Assembly (NCBI RefSeq): GCF_000702505.1 | Contig: NZ_JNIM01000001.1 | Location: forward strand, 806,001 to 870,000 | Length of the DNA stretch: 64,000 nt | DNA from: Thermogemmatispora carboxidivorans | GTDB taxonomy: Bacteria; Chloroflexota; Ktedonobacteria; Ktedonobacterales; Ktedonobacteraceae | Direction of reading: 5' to 3' | Part shown: piece by piece, positions 33,387 through 41,919 of the stretch | Layout: every line of letters begins with the position of its first letter | Numbering within the stretch: the stretch's first letter is position 1 | Position numbers and translations under genes: made by a program | Notes under the pieces: model-generated | Database searches by the model: none | Told to the model about the DNA's origin: nothing | Seen by the model: the letters and a program-made list of their open reading frames with translations, nothing else

Positions 33387-34895
33387 CTAGCGACGGCGCA
33401 GAAAGGGAGGCGCGCTAATCTCCTGCTCCTGCTCTAGCCGCTCCTGGTAGCGGCGTGCCAGGCTGCGCAGGCCTCGCAGATCTTCCAGGCTGCGCTGCGG
33501 ACGTGGCAACGCAGGTGGACGCAAGGGGGCCGCTGAGGCGGCGGGAACCCCGTGGGAGAGCGAAGGGCGCGGCGTCAGTGGCGGCATGGGGACCATCTGG
33601 TGAGATGCCCGGGCTGGCTCGGGTGTGCCTGCACCGTTGCTGGCCTGGGTTGCTGCCTCAAGCTGGGCCGGGCGCGATGTTCCCGCCATCAACGCTGGTG
33701 GCTGGGCTGCCAGTGGCTCGCCCATGCCAGCGGCAATCAGCGTTACTCGCAGGCTATCCTGCAGCGTTGGATCGATGACCGCTCCAAAGGTAATATCTGC
33801 TGCCTCGTCGACCACGCTACGAATGCACTCCGCCACCTCGTTGACCTCAAAGAGCGTCAGATCCTCGCCACCACTAATATTGAACAGCACACGGTGCGCC
33901 CCTTTGATGGTCACATTCAGGAAGCCACCGGCGATGGCCTGCTGGGCGGCAGCCTGAGCGCGATTGCGGCCTTTTCCCTCGCCGATGCTCATCAGGGCGC
34001 TACCGGCGCCGCGCAAGACATTCCGCACATCAGCGAAATCGACATTGACCAGCCCCGGCACATTAATGACCTCGGCGATCCCTTGCACTCCCTGGCGCAG
34101 CACATCATCGGCGACCTTGAAGGCCTCCGCCAGACTGCGATCCCGCGTGCTCGACATTAGCAAGCGATCGTTGGGAATAGTGATCAGTGCATCAACCTCT
34201 TTGCTCAGCTCGGCCAGGCCCTCGTGAGCCACGCGGCGGCGGCGAGAGCCTTCAAAGCTGAACGGAAGTGTCACAATGCCGATGGTCAGGGCGCCCAGCT
34301 TGCGAGCAATTGAAGCCACCACTGGGGCAGCTCCCGTACCGGTGCCGCCTCCCAAACCGGCAGCGATAAAGACCAGGTCGGCATCCTTGAGCGCGGCGCG
34401 AATCTCAGCCGCGCTCTCCGTTGCGGCCCGCATACCGACAGCCGCGTTACCGCCTGCTCCCAAACCCTTAGTATAATGGTGGCCCAGGCTAATCCGCAGA
34501 GGGGCCTGTGACAGCTCCAGCACCTGCGCATCCGTATTCATCGCGATGAAACGCACGCCCCGGACATTCATATCAATCATGCGATTCACCGCATTGGTAC
34601 CTCCGCCGCCTACACCGGCCACCACAATATCAACGTGGCGCGGCTCATCGCAGCGCTCTTCGGCGTCGACGGGCGCCTCAGTAGCGAGCATCTCCTCTTC
34701 CGTATCCCGCTGCTCCCAGCCGGCCAGGGTGTGCTCCTCCCGCATATCCTCTCCCACCTCCACCTCATGTCGGAGTACGGCCCAGCGGTTCGCCTGCTCA
34801 TCGTAGTAGAAATCCGATCCCTCGTTCACCGCCTGCCCCTGGCGGTCCCAGGGCCTCTCTCTCTCGTATCGATCGCCATGAAATATCGACTGCAT
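33387..34895 (-). CDS. ftsZ: Cell division protein FtsZ with long N-terminal extension
   Basis: A 502-residue tubulin-like GTPase that forms the division ring. The GTP-binding signature GGGTGTG is at residues 182-188, the T7 loop region reads NVDFADVRNVL, and the end SAPPFLRRR is a typical C-terminal peptide that binds FtsA or SepF. An acidic extension of about 85 residues precedes the core, which normally starts near residue 10-15. The linker 400-490 is Pro/Ala-rich. ATG 34895 has ACGGGGG upstream. No ftsA, ftsQ or mur genes are next to it, so it is outside a dcw cluster. Confidence 0.96.
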   Translation of the reverse strand: MQSIFHGDRYERERPWDRQGQAVNEGSDFYYDEQANRWAVLRHEVEVGEDMREEHTLAGWEQRDTEEEMLATEAPVDAEERCDEPRHVDIVVAGVGGGGTNAVNRMIDMNVRGVRFIAMNTDAQVLELSQAPLRISLGHHYTKGLGAGGNAAVGMRAATESAAEIRAALKDADLVFIAAGLGGGTGTGAAPVVASIARKLGALTIGIVTLPFSFEGSRRRRVAHEGLAELSKEVDALITIPNDRLLMSSTRDRSLAEAFKVADDVLRQGVQGIAEVINVPGLVNVDFADVRNVLRGAGSALMSIGEGKGRNRAQAAAQQAIAGGFLNVTIKGAHRVLFNISGGEDLTLFEVNEVAECIRSVVDEAADITFGAVIDPTLQDSLRVTLIAAGMGEPLAAQPPALMAGTSRPAQLEAATQASNGAGTPEPARASHQMVPMPPLTPRPSLSHGVPAASAAPLRPPALPRPQRSLEDLRGLRSLARRYQERLEQEQEISAPPFLRRR

Positions 34896-36507: not shown

Positions 36508-36581
36508 GCACCTGTAGCTCAATTGGATAGAGCGCTTGACTTCGGATCAAGTGGTTGCGGGTTCGAGTCCTGCCAGGTGCG
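36508..36581 (+). tRNA. tRNA-Arg (anticodon TCG)
   Basis: Acceptor arms GCACCTG (36508-36514) and CAGGTGC (36574-36580) pair fully; the D-arm is TAGCTCAATTGGATAGAGC, the anticodon arm CTTGA-CTTCGGA-TCAAG gives anticodon TCG (codon CGA), and the T-arm GCGGGTTCGAGTCCTGC is intact. The discriminator base is G and CCA is not encoded. Confidence 0.95.
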
Positions 36582-36987
36582 CTCTCCCACACTGGCCACC
36601 GTCTCCAGCCGCTTCTCAAGCCTCACGGCGCCACACGGGGAAGCCGGGCTGTCGAGACGGCGGTCCCCAAGGCCGGCTTCCTCCCCTGCAAGGACCACTT
36701 GCCTTCATGTGGCAAGGACCACCTGCCTCGCTCAGCGGTGGCAGAGACAAGTGTTCCCTTTCTCTGGCGGCTATGTCCATCTGCCTGCCTCGACTGGCAA
36801 CCACCTGCTTCCAGGGGAAGCACGCTCAGCTTCCCACCTGGTTCCCGCATCGTTCTCCGATGCTCCTGTCCGGATTCCGACCCCGTTCTGGGGGCGGTCC
36901 TCCTGCTCTGCTACAGTTGTCCCTGGCTCATCCCGGTTCTGTCTCGAAAAGACGCGAGAAGCTCTCTGTAGGCAGAAAGAAGCAAGA
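36582..36987. other. Non-coding stretch after the tRNA
   Basis: About 400 bp with only overlapping chance frames. The terminator at 36988 closes it. Confidence 0.45.
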
Positions 36988-37020
36988 GGGGAACGCACTG
37001 GCGCGTTCCCCTTCTTTTTT
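36988..37020. terminator. Bidirectional-type terminator
   Basis: GGGGAACGC (36988-36996) and GCGTTCCCC (37003-37011) with a short loop, followed on the plus strand by TTCTTTTTT. It can end the tRNA-Arg transcript and, on the minus strand, the gene ending at 37066 (CT-rich tract). Confidence 0.75.
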
Positions 37021-37065: not shown

Positions 37066-37860
37066 TCAGGAGAAAGAGACCTGCAGCCCACCGGCCTCGA
37101 GGGAGGCGCTGTTGAGGGAACGGTCGATATAAAGCACCACATTGGTCATCACAAGCCGGGGGACTGTGCCCCCAGTAGCCAGAACCAGCAGATCGGCCTT
37201 GTTGGCGAAACTGCTCAGGCCAGTAACAATATCCTGCAAGATAGAAGTCTTGATAGAAACGCCGGTCGCTACCGCTGTCCCCGAGGCCGTGATAGTAATG
37301 GTCACATTGCCAAGATCGCGCGAGATCTGCAACCCCGACATCGTAGTGGAGCTAAAGGTCAGCACAGGGTGCAACGGGTCGGGCAGGAGGCTCAGATGGG
37401 CATTGGTGCCAATGATCTCGCTTGCCCGCAAGACGATCGAGTTAGGAGCCGTGAGAATAGTCGGCTTGGGCGTAGCCGTAGGTGTCGGTGTTGGCGTGAC
37501 GGTCACCGTGGCCCCGGGCGTCACAGTGACTGAAGGGACCGCGCTCGGCGTCGGGGTGGCCGTGGCTGTTTCACCGGGTGTGGGTGTCACCCGGGGCGTT
37601 GGCGAGGGTGTTGGCGACGGCGTCGGCGTGGGAGTCGGCGGGTCAACGGTTGGCGTGGGGGTTGACGTGCGATGATGGCATGGGATCAGCGGCGGCAGAC
37701 AGAACTCCGGCCCGGCCTGCGGCACTGTTGCTGCACTAGCGGCGAAGGCCACCTGACCCCCTGCAACAAAAGCTGGAATCAAGAGCACCAGAAAAGAACA
37801 GAGTGCGCCGATTTTCCCCCAGAATGCCAGCATTGCTGGAGAACGCTTCTTCATATTCAT
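37066..37860 (-). CDS. Exported protein with Pro/Thr linker and DUF6230-like C-terminal domain
   Basis: A 264-residue protein. A signal peptide (helix about residues 14-38, ending VAFAASA) is followed by two Cys, then a Thr-Pro repeat linker (residues 65-135) of wall-spanning type. The last 130 residues are beta-rich and share layout with the DUF6230-like protein encoded next ([13 protein letters not shown] against LQAKNFHLYP; both end in a short beta stretch with LxxxGLxxSxS). It is the last gene of the putative TetR-controlled group 41064-37066. ATG 37860 or 37854 is the start; both have weak SD. Cell-surface or wall location is inferred. Confidence 0.75.
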
Positions 37861-38077
37861 AGCTTGGCCTGACCTTTATTACATTGCGCAACTTATTCGT
37901 CCGCTGAGCTCGCGAGGATAGAAAGGAAAATACCATCACCGTCAGGTGGCAATCGTACCATTGGAAGACCAGACGGGGAGAGCGCGCGAGTGCAGCCGAC
38001 CCTGAGAGCACCGCTGCACCCGCGCGGTGACGATGGACGGGCCTTACAGGAAGCGACCCATCTCTCGCCAGCTTTTC

Positions 38078-38764
38078 TTAGCTATGGGTGATGCTCAGCG
38101 TCAGACCAGGCAGCGTGATGCTGTTGGCAGCCTGGTATGGGGAATTAATGGTCAGATTGGTCAGCGTCGCGCTGGTGGCCGTCTGATCAAAAGGATTGGG
38201 GCCAGTGCTGAGCACGAGGTTCTGGAACTGGCCTTCATCGGCCTGCAGACCTGTGGCGTCGTTCGTCAACCCCGTCACCGACACTGGCGTGTTCTGGCCC
38301 GCCTCCAGCTTGACGGTCACAGTACCCAGCGGCCCCAGGCTGATGCTCTTACTGATCACCAGATCGGTAATGGTACCATCAAGCTGGTTGACTGCCACCG
38401 GGGTGCTGTTATCGGCAGGCGAGATGCCCGGGTAAAGATGGAAGTTCTTGGCCTGCAGTACCTTGGCCTGCACCGTGACCGGCAGCGGCGCCGCTGCCGC
38501 CAGGGCGATGGCACCGTTCTCCACTGCTCCAAGCATCCCGAAGAGCAGCAGGGCTGCGACCAGCATCACCGACCAGAAAACAGTTCGATTGGTGCGCCCT
38601 ACCGGAGGCAGCTCCTCGTCTTCATCGACAACTGCTCTGGTCTCAATGGTTTCCACTCGACTGACATCAATGTCCTCGGCATCGAACGGGGGCAGGTGCA
38701 TGGGCAGGCTCGTTTCCTCACGCTCTGGTTCCCGGGTCATTCCGGTGTCGTGCTCGTTTTCCAT
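38078..38764 (-). CDS. DUF6230-like membrane-anchored protein
   Basis: A 228-residue protein with an acidic cytoplasmic start of 60 residues, one helix (about 63-90), then a beta-rich outside domain with APLPVTVQAKVLQAKNFHLYP and LTNLTINSPYQAANSITLPGL. This matches what I know of DUF6230 proteins in actinomycetes (earlier labelled 'cholesterol esterase' without proof), whose genes usually lie beside a DUF6114 gene, as here. ATG 38764 follows AAAGGAGAG. Activity is unknown; no catalytic triad is evident. Confidence 0.78.
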   Translation of the reverse strand: MENEHDTGMTREPEREETSLPMHLPPFDAEDIDVSRVETIETRAVVDEDEELPPVGRTNRTVFWSVMLVAALLLFGMLGAVENGAIALAAAAPLPVTVQAKVLQAKNFHLYPGISPADNSTPVAVNQLDGTITDLVISKSISLGPLGTVTVKLEAGQNTPVSVTGLTNDATGLQADEGQFQNLVLSTGPNPFDQTATSATLTNLTINSPYQAANSITLPGLTLSITHS

Positions 38765-38819
38765 GAGACGCTCTCCTTTTCAAGTACTACATGATTAGAT
38801 ATATATTTATGTATATGTA

Positions 38820-38836
38820 ATCCCGATAAGCGGGAT
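38820..38836. repeat. Small hairpin between DUF6114 and DUF6230 genes
   Basis: ATCCCG-ATAAG-CGGGAT with six-bp arms in an AT-rich gap. It could stabilise or partly end the transcript. Confidence 0.35.
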
Positions 38837-38942
38837 CACAGACGAACGGAGAAAGACGCACACAGGATAATAATCTGGAAAGATAGTCAGGTTCGCTGAT
38901 CTGTTATCCTTGCTGGCTTAAAGCTCCTGGCTGGCAATGGCT

Positions 38943-39560
38943 TCATGAGCGCATGGTCGCGCGGGCGCGGAGAGACGAGCGCTGCACGCCGCTCCGTTTG
39001 CTAGCAGCCACAGGACGCCAGGCTACGCCCAAGGCCCCACCGATGATGCCAAGCAGCATACCGATCCCAAAGCCGCCGAAAGAGGAAGCGACCAGAGAGA
39101 CGAGGGCGAGCACCACGCCGATAGAGCCGGTGATGAGTGAATAAGCAGGGACCAGCAGCTGGATCACGCCCATAATGACCAGCAAGGAGCCGACAAGTAG
39201 GCCAGCCCAGAGAGTGCTGCCGGGGAGCATGGCCAGTCGGATGAGCATAGCCGGGCCCCAGAGGACCAGCAGGCCGGAGAGGATCAGCAAAATGGAGCCT
39301 GCGAAGGGACGTGAGCGGCGCCAGCGGCGGAAGCGACCCCAGCGCTGCCACTGTTGGACCAGCCGGGCCTCCTTGTCGGCGGTGCGCAGGCGACGGTACG
39401 TGCGCCAGGCGCTGAAGCGTTGGCGCAGTCCTGCCAGCGCGCCCGTCAGCGCGTGGGTGCGGCTGGAGCGACTGGAGAGGTCGACAACGATCACTTGTTG
39501 ACTCTGGCTAGTGCTGCTTTGCGCGGTGCCTTCCGCCTGTGGTTCTTGAGACATCGCCAT
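38943..39560 (-). CDS. DUF6114-like four-helix membrane protein
   Basis: A 205-residue protein. A polar, Arg-rich cytoplasmic start of about 95 residues (RFSAWRTYRRLRTADKEARL) precedes four hydrophobic helices from FAGSILLILSGLLVLWGPA on; the last ends GMLLGIIGGALGVAWRP. The helical part matches DUF6114 proteins, which in Streptomyces stand next to DUF6230. ATG 39560 has AAAAGGAG eight bases upstream; the longer open frame to 39875 overlaps the oxidase gene in another frame. It probably forms a membrane complex with the DUF6230-like protein; that is inference. Confidence 0.8.
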   Translation of the reverse strand: MAMSQEPQAEGTAQSSTSQSQQVIVVDLSSRSSRTHALTGALAGLRQRFSAWRTYRRLRTADKEARLVQQWQRWGRFRRWRRSRPFAGSILLILSGLLVLWGPAMLIRLAMLPGSTLWAGLLVGSLLVIMGVIQLLVPAYSLITGSIGVVLALVSLVASSFGGFGIGMLLGIIGGALGVAWRPVAASKRSGVQRSSLRARATMRS

Positions 39561-39753
39561 TGTAGACACTCCTTTTCCACGCCTCAACGGTGAAGCGACC
39601 TGCCGGTAAACAGCCCCGGCTAACCAGGAAAGCAAACGTTGCTCAACGAGCTGAGCGAGCAGAGACAGACAAGAGAGGGTATAGCTGGCCGCTCCTGGCG
39701 CCCGAGCCCCGAGCCGGAGCGGCTCACTCTCCCCGGCTTGCGGCTGCCTCTGC

Positions 39754-41064
39754 CTAAACGGCGAGCAGGCGCGGCAGCTCCAGTGCCAGCCGCCAGTCGC
39801 CGCTGATGCGCAGGCGACGTGAGAGGACAGCCTGACGCTGATTGAGTCGGCGGCTGGAGAGCCTGGCCCAATCATTGGCTGAGCAGCGCAGCGTCAGCCG
39901 CGGATTCTCCAACCGGCCCACGCCAGCGACCGGTGGTTCGCCCGGCTCCAACTTCAGGTAGCGAGGCTGCATATCATCGAAGAGCCACTGGATAGAGGCC
40001 CGTAGTGGCTTCGAGCGCTGCTGCGACCAGGCGGCCACCAGGCGCATGGAAGTAAAGATCGTCTCCATTGTCTCCTCAGTCACATGGGGTGCATCCCCAG
40101 TGCCCAGCACACCGCCCTCGATGAACTTGATAATGCGCTCGGCCTGGACCTCAAAGGGGTCATCGAGGCCCAGCTTGGCCAGCTCGCTCACCTCGTGGGG
40201 GTCGATGCCCGCACGGCGTAGCTTTGTATACAGCGATCGCAGGCCGAAAGCGAACATCTCCTGTGGGGTAAAGCCAAGGCAGGTAATATACGACCAATCG
40301 TGATCGGGGGGAGCCAGCACACCCGCCGTCCAGGCCAGGATGCGGTTGAGCATCTCGATCGTGGCCTCCTTGCAACGGCGGTCTTTGCTCACCAGCTCAC
40401 GCAGCAATTGGATGCCAAAGGCAATATGTCGCGACTCGTCGCGGGAGACGAAGAAGATGCCGCGTCCCAGGGCTGGAAGGAGGCCAGTGCGGGTGGTATA
40501 TTCGCGCAGGAAGTGCTGACCGGTGTGCGCCAGCATCCCTTCGATGACGATATGGTAGAGTACTACACCCTGGGCCAGCAGCGGCAAGCTATGCGGATTG
40601 CGACGCAGCCGCTCTGCTGCGCGATCAAGCTCCGTGAAGACCTGCACAAAGCCCCAGCTCAGATGGGGACGAACTGCACTGAGCGTCGTGCTGATATCCT
40701 GGCCGAGCTGACAGACTTCGCGAATAAAGCGATCGAAAAAGACGTGGTGACGAGCCTCGTCGGCGATCTGCGTTGCGAGGAAGATCTTGTCCTCTGGCCG
40801 GGGCGCCGGCTCCACAAAAGGAGCCAGCGTCAGCGTCACCGACTCCTCGCCGTCGAGGAACATCGAACAATTCCAGAGGATGGCCGCCCGCTCTCGCTCA
40901 CTGTGCTTTTCTCTCCAATCCAGTGCATCCTGGCTAAAGTCCAGCGCCTTTGCTGACCAGTTCCCTTCCTCCCACAGGCGATAGAGTCGATCTTTCTCAA
41001 CCGGTGGCGTCTGTTCAGAATCGACATCGATGAAGCCTTCCTGTTGGGCCGGTTCGGTAGTCAT
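39754..41064 (-). CDS. R2-like ligand-binding oxidase fused to a C-terminal SCP2-like segment
   Basis: A 436-residue protein. Residues 30-340 are a ferritin-like R2/R2lox di-metal domain with ligands at Glu 73 or 74 (LDGEESV), Glu 103 and His 106 (DEARHH), Glu 175 (HIVIEGML), and Glu 210 and His 213 (RDESRH). Residues 380-436 match the second half of an SCP2 sterol-carrier domain (RLTLRCSANDWARL, then SRRLRISGDWRLALELPRLLAV). R2lox proteins hold an Mn/Fe centre and a bound fatty acid and may oxidise lipids. The fusion suggests a bound lipid substrate. ATG 41064 follows AGGGGGA. It is the first gene downstream of the TetR operator promoter. Confidence 0.9.
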   Translation of the reverse strand: MTTEPAQQEGFIDVDSEQTPPVEKDRLYRLWEEGNWSAKALDFSQDALDWREKHSERERAAILWNCSMFLDGEESVTLTLAPFVEPAPRPEDKIFLATQIADEARHHVFFDRFIREVCQLGQDISTTLSAVRPHLSWGFVQVFTELDRAAERLRRNPHSLPLLAQGVVLYHIVIEGMLAHTGQHFLREYTTRTGLLPALGRGIFFVSRDESRHIAFGIQLLRELVSKDRRCKEATIEMLNRILAWTAGVLAPPDHDWSYITCLGFTPQEMFAFGLRSLYTKLRRAGIDPHEVSELAKLGLDDPFEVQAERIIKFIEGGVLGTGDAPHVTEETMETIFTSMRLVAAWSQQRSKPLRASIQWLFDDMQPRYLKLEPGEPPVAGVGRLENPRLTLRCSANDWARLSSRRLNQRQAVLSRRLRISGDWRLALELPRLLAV

Positions 41065-41176
41065 GGGTTGTTTCCCCCTGTTTCTGGGTACCTGCCTGCC
41101 TGTGAGGGAGGCGCCACCCCGACAAAGCCGCGTCGGGGCTGGCTGGCCCTCGCCAGATCCTGAACCGTCAACTAAA

Positions 41177-41239
41177 TTGACTGACAGTCAGTCAACCGTT
41201 GTTGTATATGACTATAGCCGGCAATCAGGTGATTGTCAA
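41177..41239 (-). promoter_or_regulatory. TetR-type operator and promoter of the oxidase gene group
   Basis: The perfect palindrome TTGACTGACAGTCAGTCAA (41177-41195) is a typical TetR-family operator. On the minus strand a promoter TTGACA (41239-41234), 17-bp spacer, TATAGT (41216-41211) lies just upstream, so the operator covers about +9 to +27 of the transcript reading into the oxidase gene. The TetR gene itself ends at 41329, 90 bp upstream of the promoter. Confidence 0.82.
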
Positions 41240-41328
41240 GGGGAAAACGATCGCCTGGTAAATTAGGGTAGTTTCTGCAACCGGACAGGATACCGGGAGC
41301 GAGAGCGAGCTACCGCTGTGAAGCAGCG

Positions 41329-41919
41329 TCAAGCGATGCCGAGTGCGTGGCGAATGAAGCTAGAGCATTCGGCGATGAAGACCTCGGGGGAGACGGGCGA
41401 GTTATAGATGTAGCATTCTTCGGCGGCGTAGTAGACGGTACCGACGATCAGAATCGCCGTCACCTCGGGGTTAATCGTCGGGCTAAGAGAGCCGCGTTGC
41501 TGCTCCTGGCGGATGATCTCGGCGATCAGGCCGTAGTAGGGAGCGAAGATATGCTGGCGTTCGGCGGGGTGCTCGGTCCAGCAGGTATTGAAGTGGACGA
41601 TCGCCAGGATGTCGCGGTACTCTGACATGGTCTGGAACGTTTCGGCCACGCTGCGCTCGATCATCTCTTGCAGAGTGTGAGCCTCATCGTAGGCGCGTCG
41701 GAGCGTGGTCTCGATGCGCTCTTGCATCTCGCGGGCGAGCGTTGTCAAGACCGAGGCTTTGGATGGAAAGTACCAATAGAAAGTTCCCTGGGCCACGCCG
41801 GCGCGGGCCACGATCTCGGAGATGGTCGTTGCTTCGAATCCTTTCTCGGCGAAGACCTCGCGCGAGATCCTGAGCAATTCGGCCTTGCGTGCTTCGCGAT
41901 TGCCTCGATTTGCTGCCAT
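41329..41919 (-). CDS. TetR-family transcriptional regulator
   Basis: A 196-residue repressor. The N-terminal HTH is clear: ISREVFAEKGFEATTISEIVARAGVAQGTFYWYFPSK. The C-terminal ligand domain (residues 70-196) matches TetR_C families with an aromatic and Cys-rich pocket. ATG 41919 has AAAGG eight bases upstream; GTG at 41928 is the alternative. It reads toward the oxidase gene on the same strand, and the 19-bp palindrome between them is the likely operator. The ligand may be a fatty acid or similar lipid, judged from the neighbouring oxidase. Confidence 0.9.
   Translation of the reverse strand: MAANRGNREARKAELLRISREVFAEKGFEATTISEIVARAGVAQGTFYWYFPSKASVLTTLAREMQERIETTLRRAYDEAHTLQEMIERSVAETFQTMSEYRDILAIVHFNTCWTEHPAERQHIFAPYYGLIAEIIRQEQQRGSLSPTINPEVTAILIVGTVYYAAEECYIYNSPVSPEVFIAECSSFIRHALGIA

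Follow-up and report, generated by a model that had tools for sequence, protein, structure and literature searches.

The analysed stretch of Thermogemmatispora carboxidivorans DNA (64,000 nucleotides, referred to below as the window; the source genome is 5.6 Mb in size) contains a group of five genes, all on the minus strand. They encode a TetR-family regulator (41329..41919, 196 aa, ATG at 41919), a fusion of an R2lox oxidase with an SCP2 lipid-carrier domain (39754..41064, 436 aa), a DUF6114 membrane protein (38943..39560, 205 aa), a DUF6230 protein (38078..38764, 228 aa), and a second exported protein with a Thr/Pro-rich linker (37066..37860, 264 aa). A sigma-70-type promoter, TTGACA-17-TATAGT (41239-41211, minus strand), reads into the oxidase gene, and an exact 19-bp palindrome, TTGACTGACAGTCAGTCAA (41177..41195), the presumed TetR site, lies just 3' of it. 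Coordinates and Pfam assignments confirm a preliminary description of this DNA, which had listed five genes on one strand, from TetR to exported proteins, with a perfect palindrome following the promoter. The best placement of the DUF6114 start is 39560, as opposed to the longest-ORF start at 39875; this leaves 193 bp between the oxidase stop and DUF6114, and the intergenic gaps within the group measure 178-264 bp. The same gene order, with oxidases 97-98% identical, is found in two further genomes (G001 and G005).

The terminator that had been thought to close the group is weakly supported. An 11-pair stem-loop with a T-rich tail on both strands is present 3' of the last gene (36987..37012, minus strand), but such stems number five in the region against 3.9 by chance (sd 2.0), which is not above chance. 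A tRNA-Arg(tcg) gene (36508-36582) lies convergent with the group, less than 0.5 kb from its 3' end at 37066. Farther away, positions 33387-34895 encode a 502-aa FtsZ-like protein whose GTPase domain is preceded by an unusually long N-terminal extension. No alcohol or aldehyde dehydrogenases were found among the window genes at 35.5-44.6 kb.

The Oxidase Is an R2lox-SCP2 Fusion

Pfam recognizes Ribonuc_red_sm in residues 27-239 of the oxidase (63.2 bits) and SCP2 (PF02036) in residues 345-434 (39763..40032, minus strand; 38.0 bits versus a gathering cut-off of 21.3). All six R2lox metal ligands (E69, E102, H105, E167, E202, and H205, in GkR2loxI numbering) are present, as is the V72/Y162 cross-link pair, which completes the eight R2lox signature residues; all eight are kept in every aligned full-length relative. 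Structure prediction of the fusion, proposed earlier as a check, gave a confident AlphaFold model (mean pLDDT 94.7, pTM 0.92) in which R2lox and SCP2 form one compact body, and its best PDB matches are R2lox structures with TM-scores (target) of 0.7-0.8. Identity to solved R2lox proteins is about 25%, and the best NCBIfam equivalog for R2lox reached 139 bits, below its cut-off of 194; we therefore regard the protein as part of a divergent R2lox branch that the named equivalogs do not cover.

Fusion to SCP2 is not restricted to the window, since it also occurs in other Ktedonobacterales families and in about 20 of 397 sampled Actinomycetota genomes. The actinobacterial fusions (L276-L298) are frequent in certain members, sometimes two per genome, and no conserved neighbor was found beside them. 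No fused oxidase was detected on plasmids, and our literature search returned no paper linking R2lox to a sterol carrier protein. The genome of the window has three more R2lox genes, none of which adjoins DUF6114 (contig G000:C1). One (L070, at 206379) lies next to an AMP-binding (acyl-CoA) ligase and MaoC, another (L071, at 401244) next to a thiolase and a hydroxyacyl-CoA dehydrogenase, and the third (L072, at 2349559) falls in the GkR2loxI clade.

DUF6114, DUF6230, and the Third Exported Protein

Both DUF assignments pass the Pfam gathering scores: DUF6114 (PF19609) with 100.7 bits versus 27.9, and DUF6230 (PF19741), in the gene at 38078-38764, with 54.1 bits versus 27.5. The AlphaFold model of the DUF6230 protein consists of one membrane helix followed by an all-beta domain, with most blocks above pLDDT 90. 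A Foldseek search with this fold found no significant match of any kind among solved structures, hydrolases included, and a sequence search for solved relatives gave insignificant matches only, the best being TamB (E 0.63). Two DUF6230-like exported proteins had been claimed for the group, and the claim holds in full for this one only. The gene at 37066-37860 has no Pfam match and misses the DUF6230 gathering score; profile-profile comparison (hhalign, probability 96%, E 4e-9) places it in a related family, as a remote homologue of DUF6230 and not as a member. Homologues of this product, called the third exported protein below, stand beside DUF6114/DUF6230 in G032 (a Ktedonobacterales genome of another family), Alicyclobacillus, and Dictyobacter.

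We found no DUF6114 on plasmids and, in the literature searched, no paper on the function of DUF6114 or DUF6230. In the 68 high-GC DUF6230/DUF6114 loci examined, nearly all actinobacterial, no R2lox was seen within about 8 kb of the pair, so the substrate of the pair may differ in actinobacteria. In Nocardiopsis (L103:5239-7951, L107:2840-5494) a GMC oxidoreductase gene adjoins DUF6230-DUF6114 in divergent orientation, a further hint of a tie between the DUF pair and the oxidation of alcohols or sterols.

R2lox, DUF6114, and DUF6230 Are Linked in Two Phyla

A gene-neighbor search for R2lox, DUF6114, and DUF6230 revealed a conserved linkage. Wherever a sampled Ktedonobacterales genome has both R2lox-SCP2 and DUF6114, the two are adjacent (7/7: six Thermogemmatispora genomes and G032). 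The order in G032 is a protein in which DUF6114 and DUF6230 are fused, then the third exported protein, then R2lox-SCP2. G034 belongs to the genus of G032; its oxidase gene stands by itself on a long contig, and no DUF6114 match was obtained from this genome.

DUF6230 is present in 30 of 400 sampled genomes of Bacilli, the class of Alicyclobacillus, and every one of the 32 DUF6230 loci fetched from this class also contains DUF6114. R2lox lies within a window of about 16 kb around DUF6230/DUF6114 in 15 of these 32 loci, compared with 0.19 expected from 40 R2lox matches in the approximately 101 Mb of the 30 DUF6230-bearing genomes. The R2lox tree separates the window protein deeply from the Bacilli proteins, in two fully supported clades, and hence the tie to DUF6114/DUF6230 has been either formed or kept more than once. 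Chance neighborhood is ruled out by the enrichment in Bacilli and the recurrence in two R2lox clades. The recurring linkage supports the earlier view that R2lox-SCP2 belongs with DUF6114 and DUF6230 and that the genes make up a coherent group for oxidizing a lipid or hydrocarbon, part of it located in the envelope.

Further genes accompany the Bacilli loci. Alcohol dehydrogenases occur in 11 of them and aldehyde dehydrogenases in 11. Candidates for further parts of the module are an ABC1-type kinase (14/32), a protein of about 119 aa without a Pfam match (14/32), and a LuxR/GAF regulator (24/32; all counted in L221-L252); example coordinates of these recurrent genes are L229:9144-10937, L229:8802-9125, and L228:5392-5751. 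Free SCP2 genes are present in four loci, and the copy in L229 directly adjoins R2lox, forming an unfused counterpart of the window protein. In A. sendaiensis (L102) a free SCP2 and an AMP-binding ligase lie downstream of the DUF genes.

A Palindromic Operator Is Shared with a Distant GMC Oxidoreductase Gene

The regulator matches TetR_N (63.4 bits) and TetR_C_26 (58.3 bits) in Pfam. It reaches neither the ScbR (68/150 bits) nor the FadR (63/200 bits) equivalog of NCBIfam, and at the level of these profiles it is assigned to the TetR family in general, to neither the FadR nor the ScbR subfamily. The promoter agrees with the consensus in 11 of 12 positions, the best score in the region, and its sequence is unchanged across six Thermogemmatispora genomes. 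For the palindrome, 0.01 chance matches are expected in the window with up to three mismatches allowed. Each of the six genomes contains its core, TGACTGACNGTCAGTCA, without mismatch at exactly two places, one at the oxidase promoter and the other upstream of a gene for a 686-aa GMC oxidoreductase, encoded away from the group. At this second copy 18/18 operator columns are invariant, compared with 10/100 upstream and 32/60 downstream flanking columns. The copy at the R2lox promoter alone would prove little, because its flanks are conserved as well (92/100 columns). We rule out a terminator or chance repeat, because the same sequence returns unchanged at two promoter regions in all six genomes although the flanks of one copy have diverged. 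The suggestion that TetR controls the group through the palindrome is accordingly upheld as probable.

Ktedonobacter, Dictyobacter, and strain brp13 carry a related site, TTGATTGANAGTCAGTCAG, upstream of their DUF6114 gene. TetR orthologues (48-54% identity) were found in five of these loci, with the site between TetR and DUF6114 and no oxidase present. Since Ktedonobacter and Dictyobacter have TetR, the site, and DUF6114 without the oxidase, these comparisons suggest that R2lox-SCP2 entered a pre-existing TetR-operator-DUF6114-DUF6230 unit. Further matches to the operator in Ktedonobacter fall within a sigma-factor coding region and were taken as chance. The operator was searched for in G032 and the Bacilli loci and not found there; in G032 a different inverted repeat is present, and the TetR, divergently oriented, is of another type.

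The GMC protein received a general GMC assignment only in the libraries tested, its best NCBIfam match being a cholesterol oxidase far under the cut-off (97/850 bits). We take it to resemble long-chain alcohol oxidases, and it is probably an alcohol-oxidizing step. The shared operator suggests that its gene joined the putative TetR regulon.

Geobacillus P21 Is a DUF6230 Protein

During alkane degradation, Geobacillus thermoleovorans B23 produces P21 and P16, a pair of exported proteins bound to the membrane. Their induction is stronger with longer alkane chains and does not occur with palmitate or triglycerides; knock-outs were not obtained. Their N termini resemble a Streptomyces lavendulae cholesterol esterase, to which the B23 authors found full-length similarity negligible (PMC2676291). 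The G. kaustophilus orthologues are GK2770 (P21) and GK3040 (P16), and GK2770 adjoins GK2771, that is GkR2loxI, a reported alkane monooxygenase. GK2771 was assayed in crude lysate, an E202A/H205A mutant was only partly reduced in activity, and the protein co-purified with C16/C18 hydroxy fatty acids (PMC10867098).

Two of the sequenced P21 peptides occur letter for letter in Geobacillus locus L237 and one in L238. Concatenated, the peptides had no Pfam match; the whole genomic ORF of L237 is a DUF6230 protein (profile E 6e-19) lying between R2lox and DUF6114. P21 is a DUF6230 protein. P16-type N termini (VPISGVGEF) were seen in L223 and in L224, in DUF6230 proteins encoded next to DUF6114. Neither DUF6230 nor DUF6114 is named in the available text of the two papers. 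DUF6114 and DUF6230 had been described as standing together in actinomycetes without a known function; they do pair there, but also in Bacilli and Chloroflexota, and P21 is a published, unrecognized lead to their role.

Discussion

The analysis establishes the gene content, the signature residues of the oxidase, the recurring linkage, the shared conserved operator, and the identity of P21 as DUF6230. On these grounds we give a probability of about one half to the reading that the locus serves TetR-controlled uptake and hydroxylation of a hydrophobic long-chain compound, for which n-alkanes or similar hydrocarbons are the likeliest candidates. At the cell surface the hydrocarbon would be bound by DUF6230, its remote homologue, and DUF6114, which would deliver it to the membrane. 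R2lox, a predicted Mn/Fe di-metal oxidase with an alkyl-chain tunnel, would hydroxylate it, and the fused SCP2 domain may load the substrate or carry the product away. The alcohol could then be oxidized by the GMC oxidoreductase under the same operator and enter beta-oxidation. TetR is envisaged to repress both promoters via TTGACTGACNGTCAGTCAA until released by an alkyl ligand. To our knowledge, no alkane growth of Thermogemmatispora has been described. The target named in the preliminary description, a membrane lipid or sterol-like compound, fits less well than an alkane or long-chain hydrocarbon, because the Geobacillus gene set holds the alkane-induced P21 and the reportedly alkane-oxidizing GK2771 (PMC2676291, PMC10867098).

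The main rival is that the module oxidizes an endogenous alkyl lipid, be it a wax, an ether, a membrane lipid, or a long-chain fatty acid, and serves to modify the envelope or to turn over lipids, the alkanes in Geobacillus being only a surrogate inducer. The hydroxy fatty acids co-purified with GkR2loxI (PMC10867098) agree with this, as do the ligase, MaoC, thiolase, and hydroxyacyl-CoA dehydrogenase genes next to the R2lox genes of L070 and L071 and the abundance of DUF6230/DUF6114 pairs in soil actinomycetes without R2lox; since P21 and P16 respond to long alkanes and not to palmitate or triglycerides (PMC2676291), we consider it a serious but not a favored possibility. A sterol or sterol-ester system, with DUF6230 as esterase, R2lox-SCP2 as sterol oxidase, and the GMC protein as cholesterol oxidase, would accommodate the esterase-like N termini of P21 and P16, the sub-threshold cholesterol oxidase match, and the GMC oxidase adjoining the DUF pair in Nocardiopsis. 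We judge it very improbable: the resemblance to the esterase does not extend to full length according to the B23 authors (PMC2676291), Foldseek yields no hydrolase for DUF6230, and the documented inducers are alkanes and not sterols.

Most R2lox-SCP2 proteins of other lineages occur without DUF genes, and R2lox is missing beside most of the actinobacterial DUF pairs. Both facts count against the alkane reading, and as each partner mostly occurs without the other, neither strictly needs it. Also to be weighed against that reading are the crude-lysate assay and the partial mutant effect for GK2771, the lack of P21 and P16 knock-outs, the want of dehydrogenases at the window locus, and the negative operator searches in G032 and the Bacilli loci. 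The oxidase and the DUF6114/DUF6230 unit might have independent functions, with a common TetR promoter as their only tie since an insertion brought them together in the ancestor of Thermogemmatispora, as the oxidase-free units of Ktedonobacter and Dictyobacter, the solitary state of most R2lox-SCP2 genes, and the gaps of 178-264 bp would allow. The association recurs, however, in G032 with another gene order and in Bacilli with another R2lox clade, which makes this explanation unlikely.

The uptake and hydroxylation of hydrocarbons can be framed more broadly. We put forward, tentatively, that DUF6230 and DUF6114 serve bacteria generally as an envelope system, capturing long-chain hydrocarbons for an intracellular hydroxylase, the hand-over in Thermogemmatispora going through the SCP2 domain fused to R2lox. 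If so, the Thermogemmatispora oxidase would be its own substrate carrier, and two families without a known function and an R2lox clade would gain one shared, testable job. The substrates of R2lox have long been debated, and the proposal also bears on the way in which alkanes pass the envelope of such bacteria to a soluble oxygenase. Thermophilic Mn/Fe hydrocarbon hydroxylases are also of practical interest.

Compared with the solved R2lox proteins of G. kaustophilus (4hr0), Sulfolobus (7qbk), Saccharopolyspora (7qbp), and M. tuberculosis (3ee4), the window oxidase has the same fold, metal ligands, and Val-Tyr cross-link pair and differs by the extra SCP2 domain. Its full-length homologues (36-60% identity) are the fusions of R2lox with SCP2 in Actinomycetota and in the rest of the Ktedonobacterales, which in the loci examined, G032 excepted, lack the DUF6114/DUF6230 company. 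The Ktedonobacter and Dictyobacter units share with the window the TetR orthologue, the related operator, DUF6114, and DUF6230 (in Dictyobacter also the third exported protein), whereas no R2lox-SCP2 stands between operator and DUF6114. In the GK2769-GK2782 alkane cluster of G. kaustophilus, R2lox, DUF6230, and DUF6114 lie side by side as in the window (L237, L238), and a third exported protein adjoins them. The Geobacillus R2lox, however, has no SCP2 domain, belongs to another clade, and is adjoined by alcohol and aldehyde dehydrogenases, whereas the window has TetR and a distant GMC oxidoreductase gene sharing its operator. We conclude that the locus is a variant of the Geobacillus R2lox-P21 alkane module, to which it adds SCP2 within the oxidase, DUF6114 as a regular partner, and an operator for TetR that the GMC gene also carries; the joining of SCP2 to the module, the partnership of DUF6114, the identification of P21/P16 as DUF6230, the spread over phyla, and the regulon are new.
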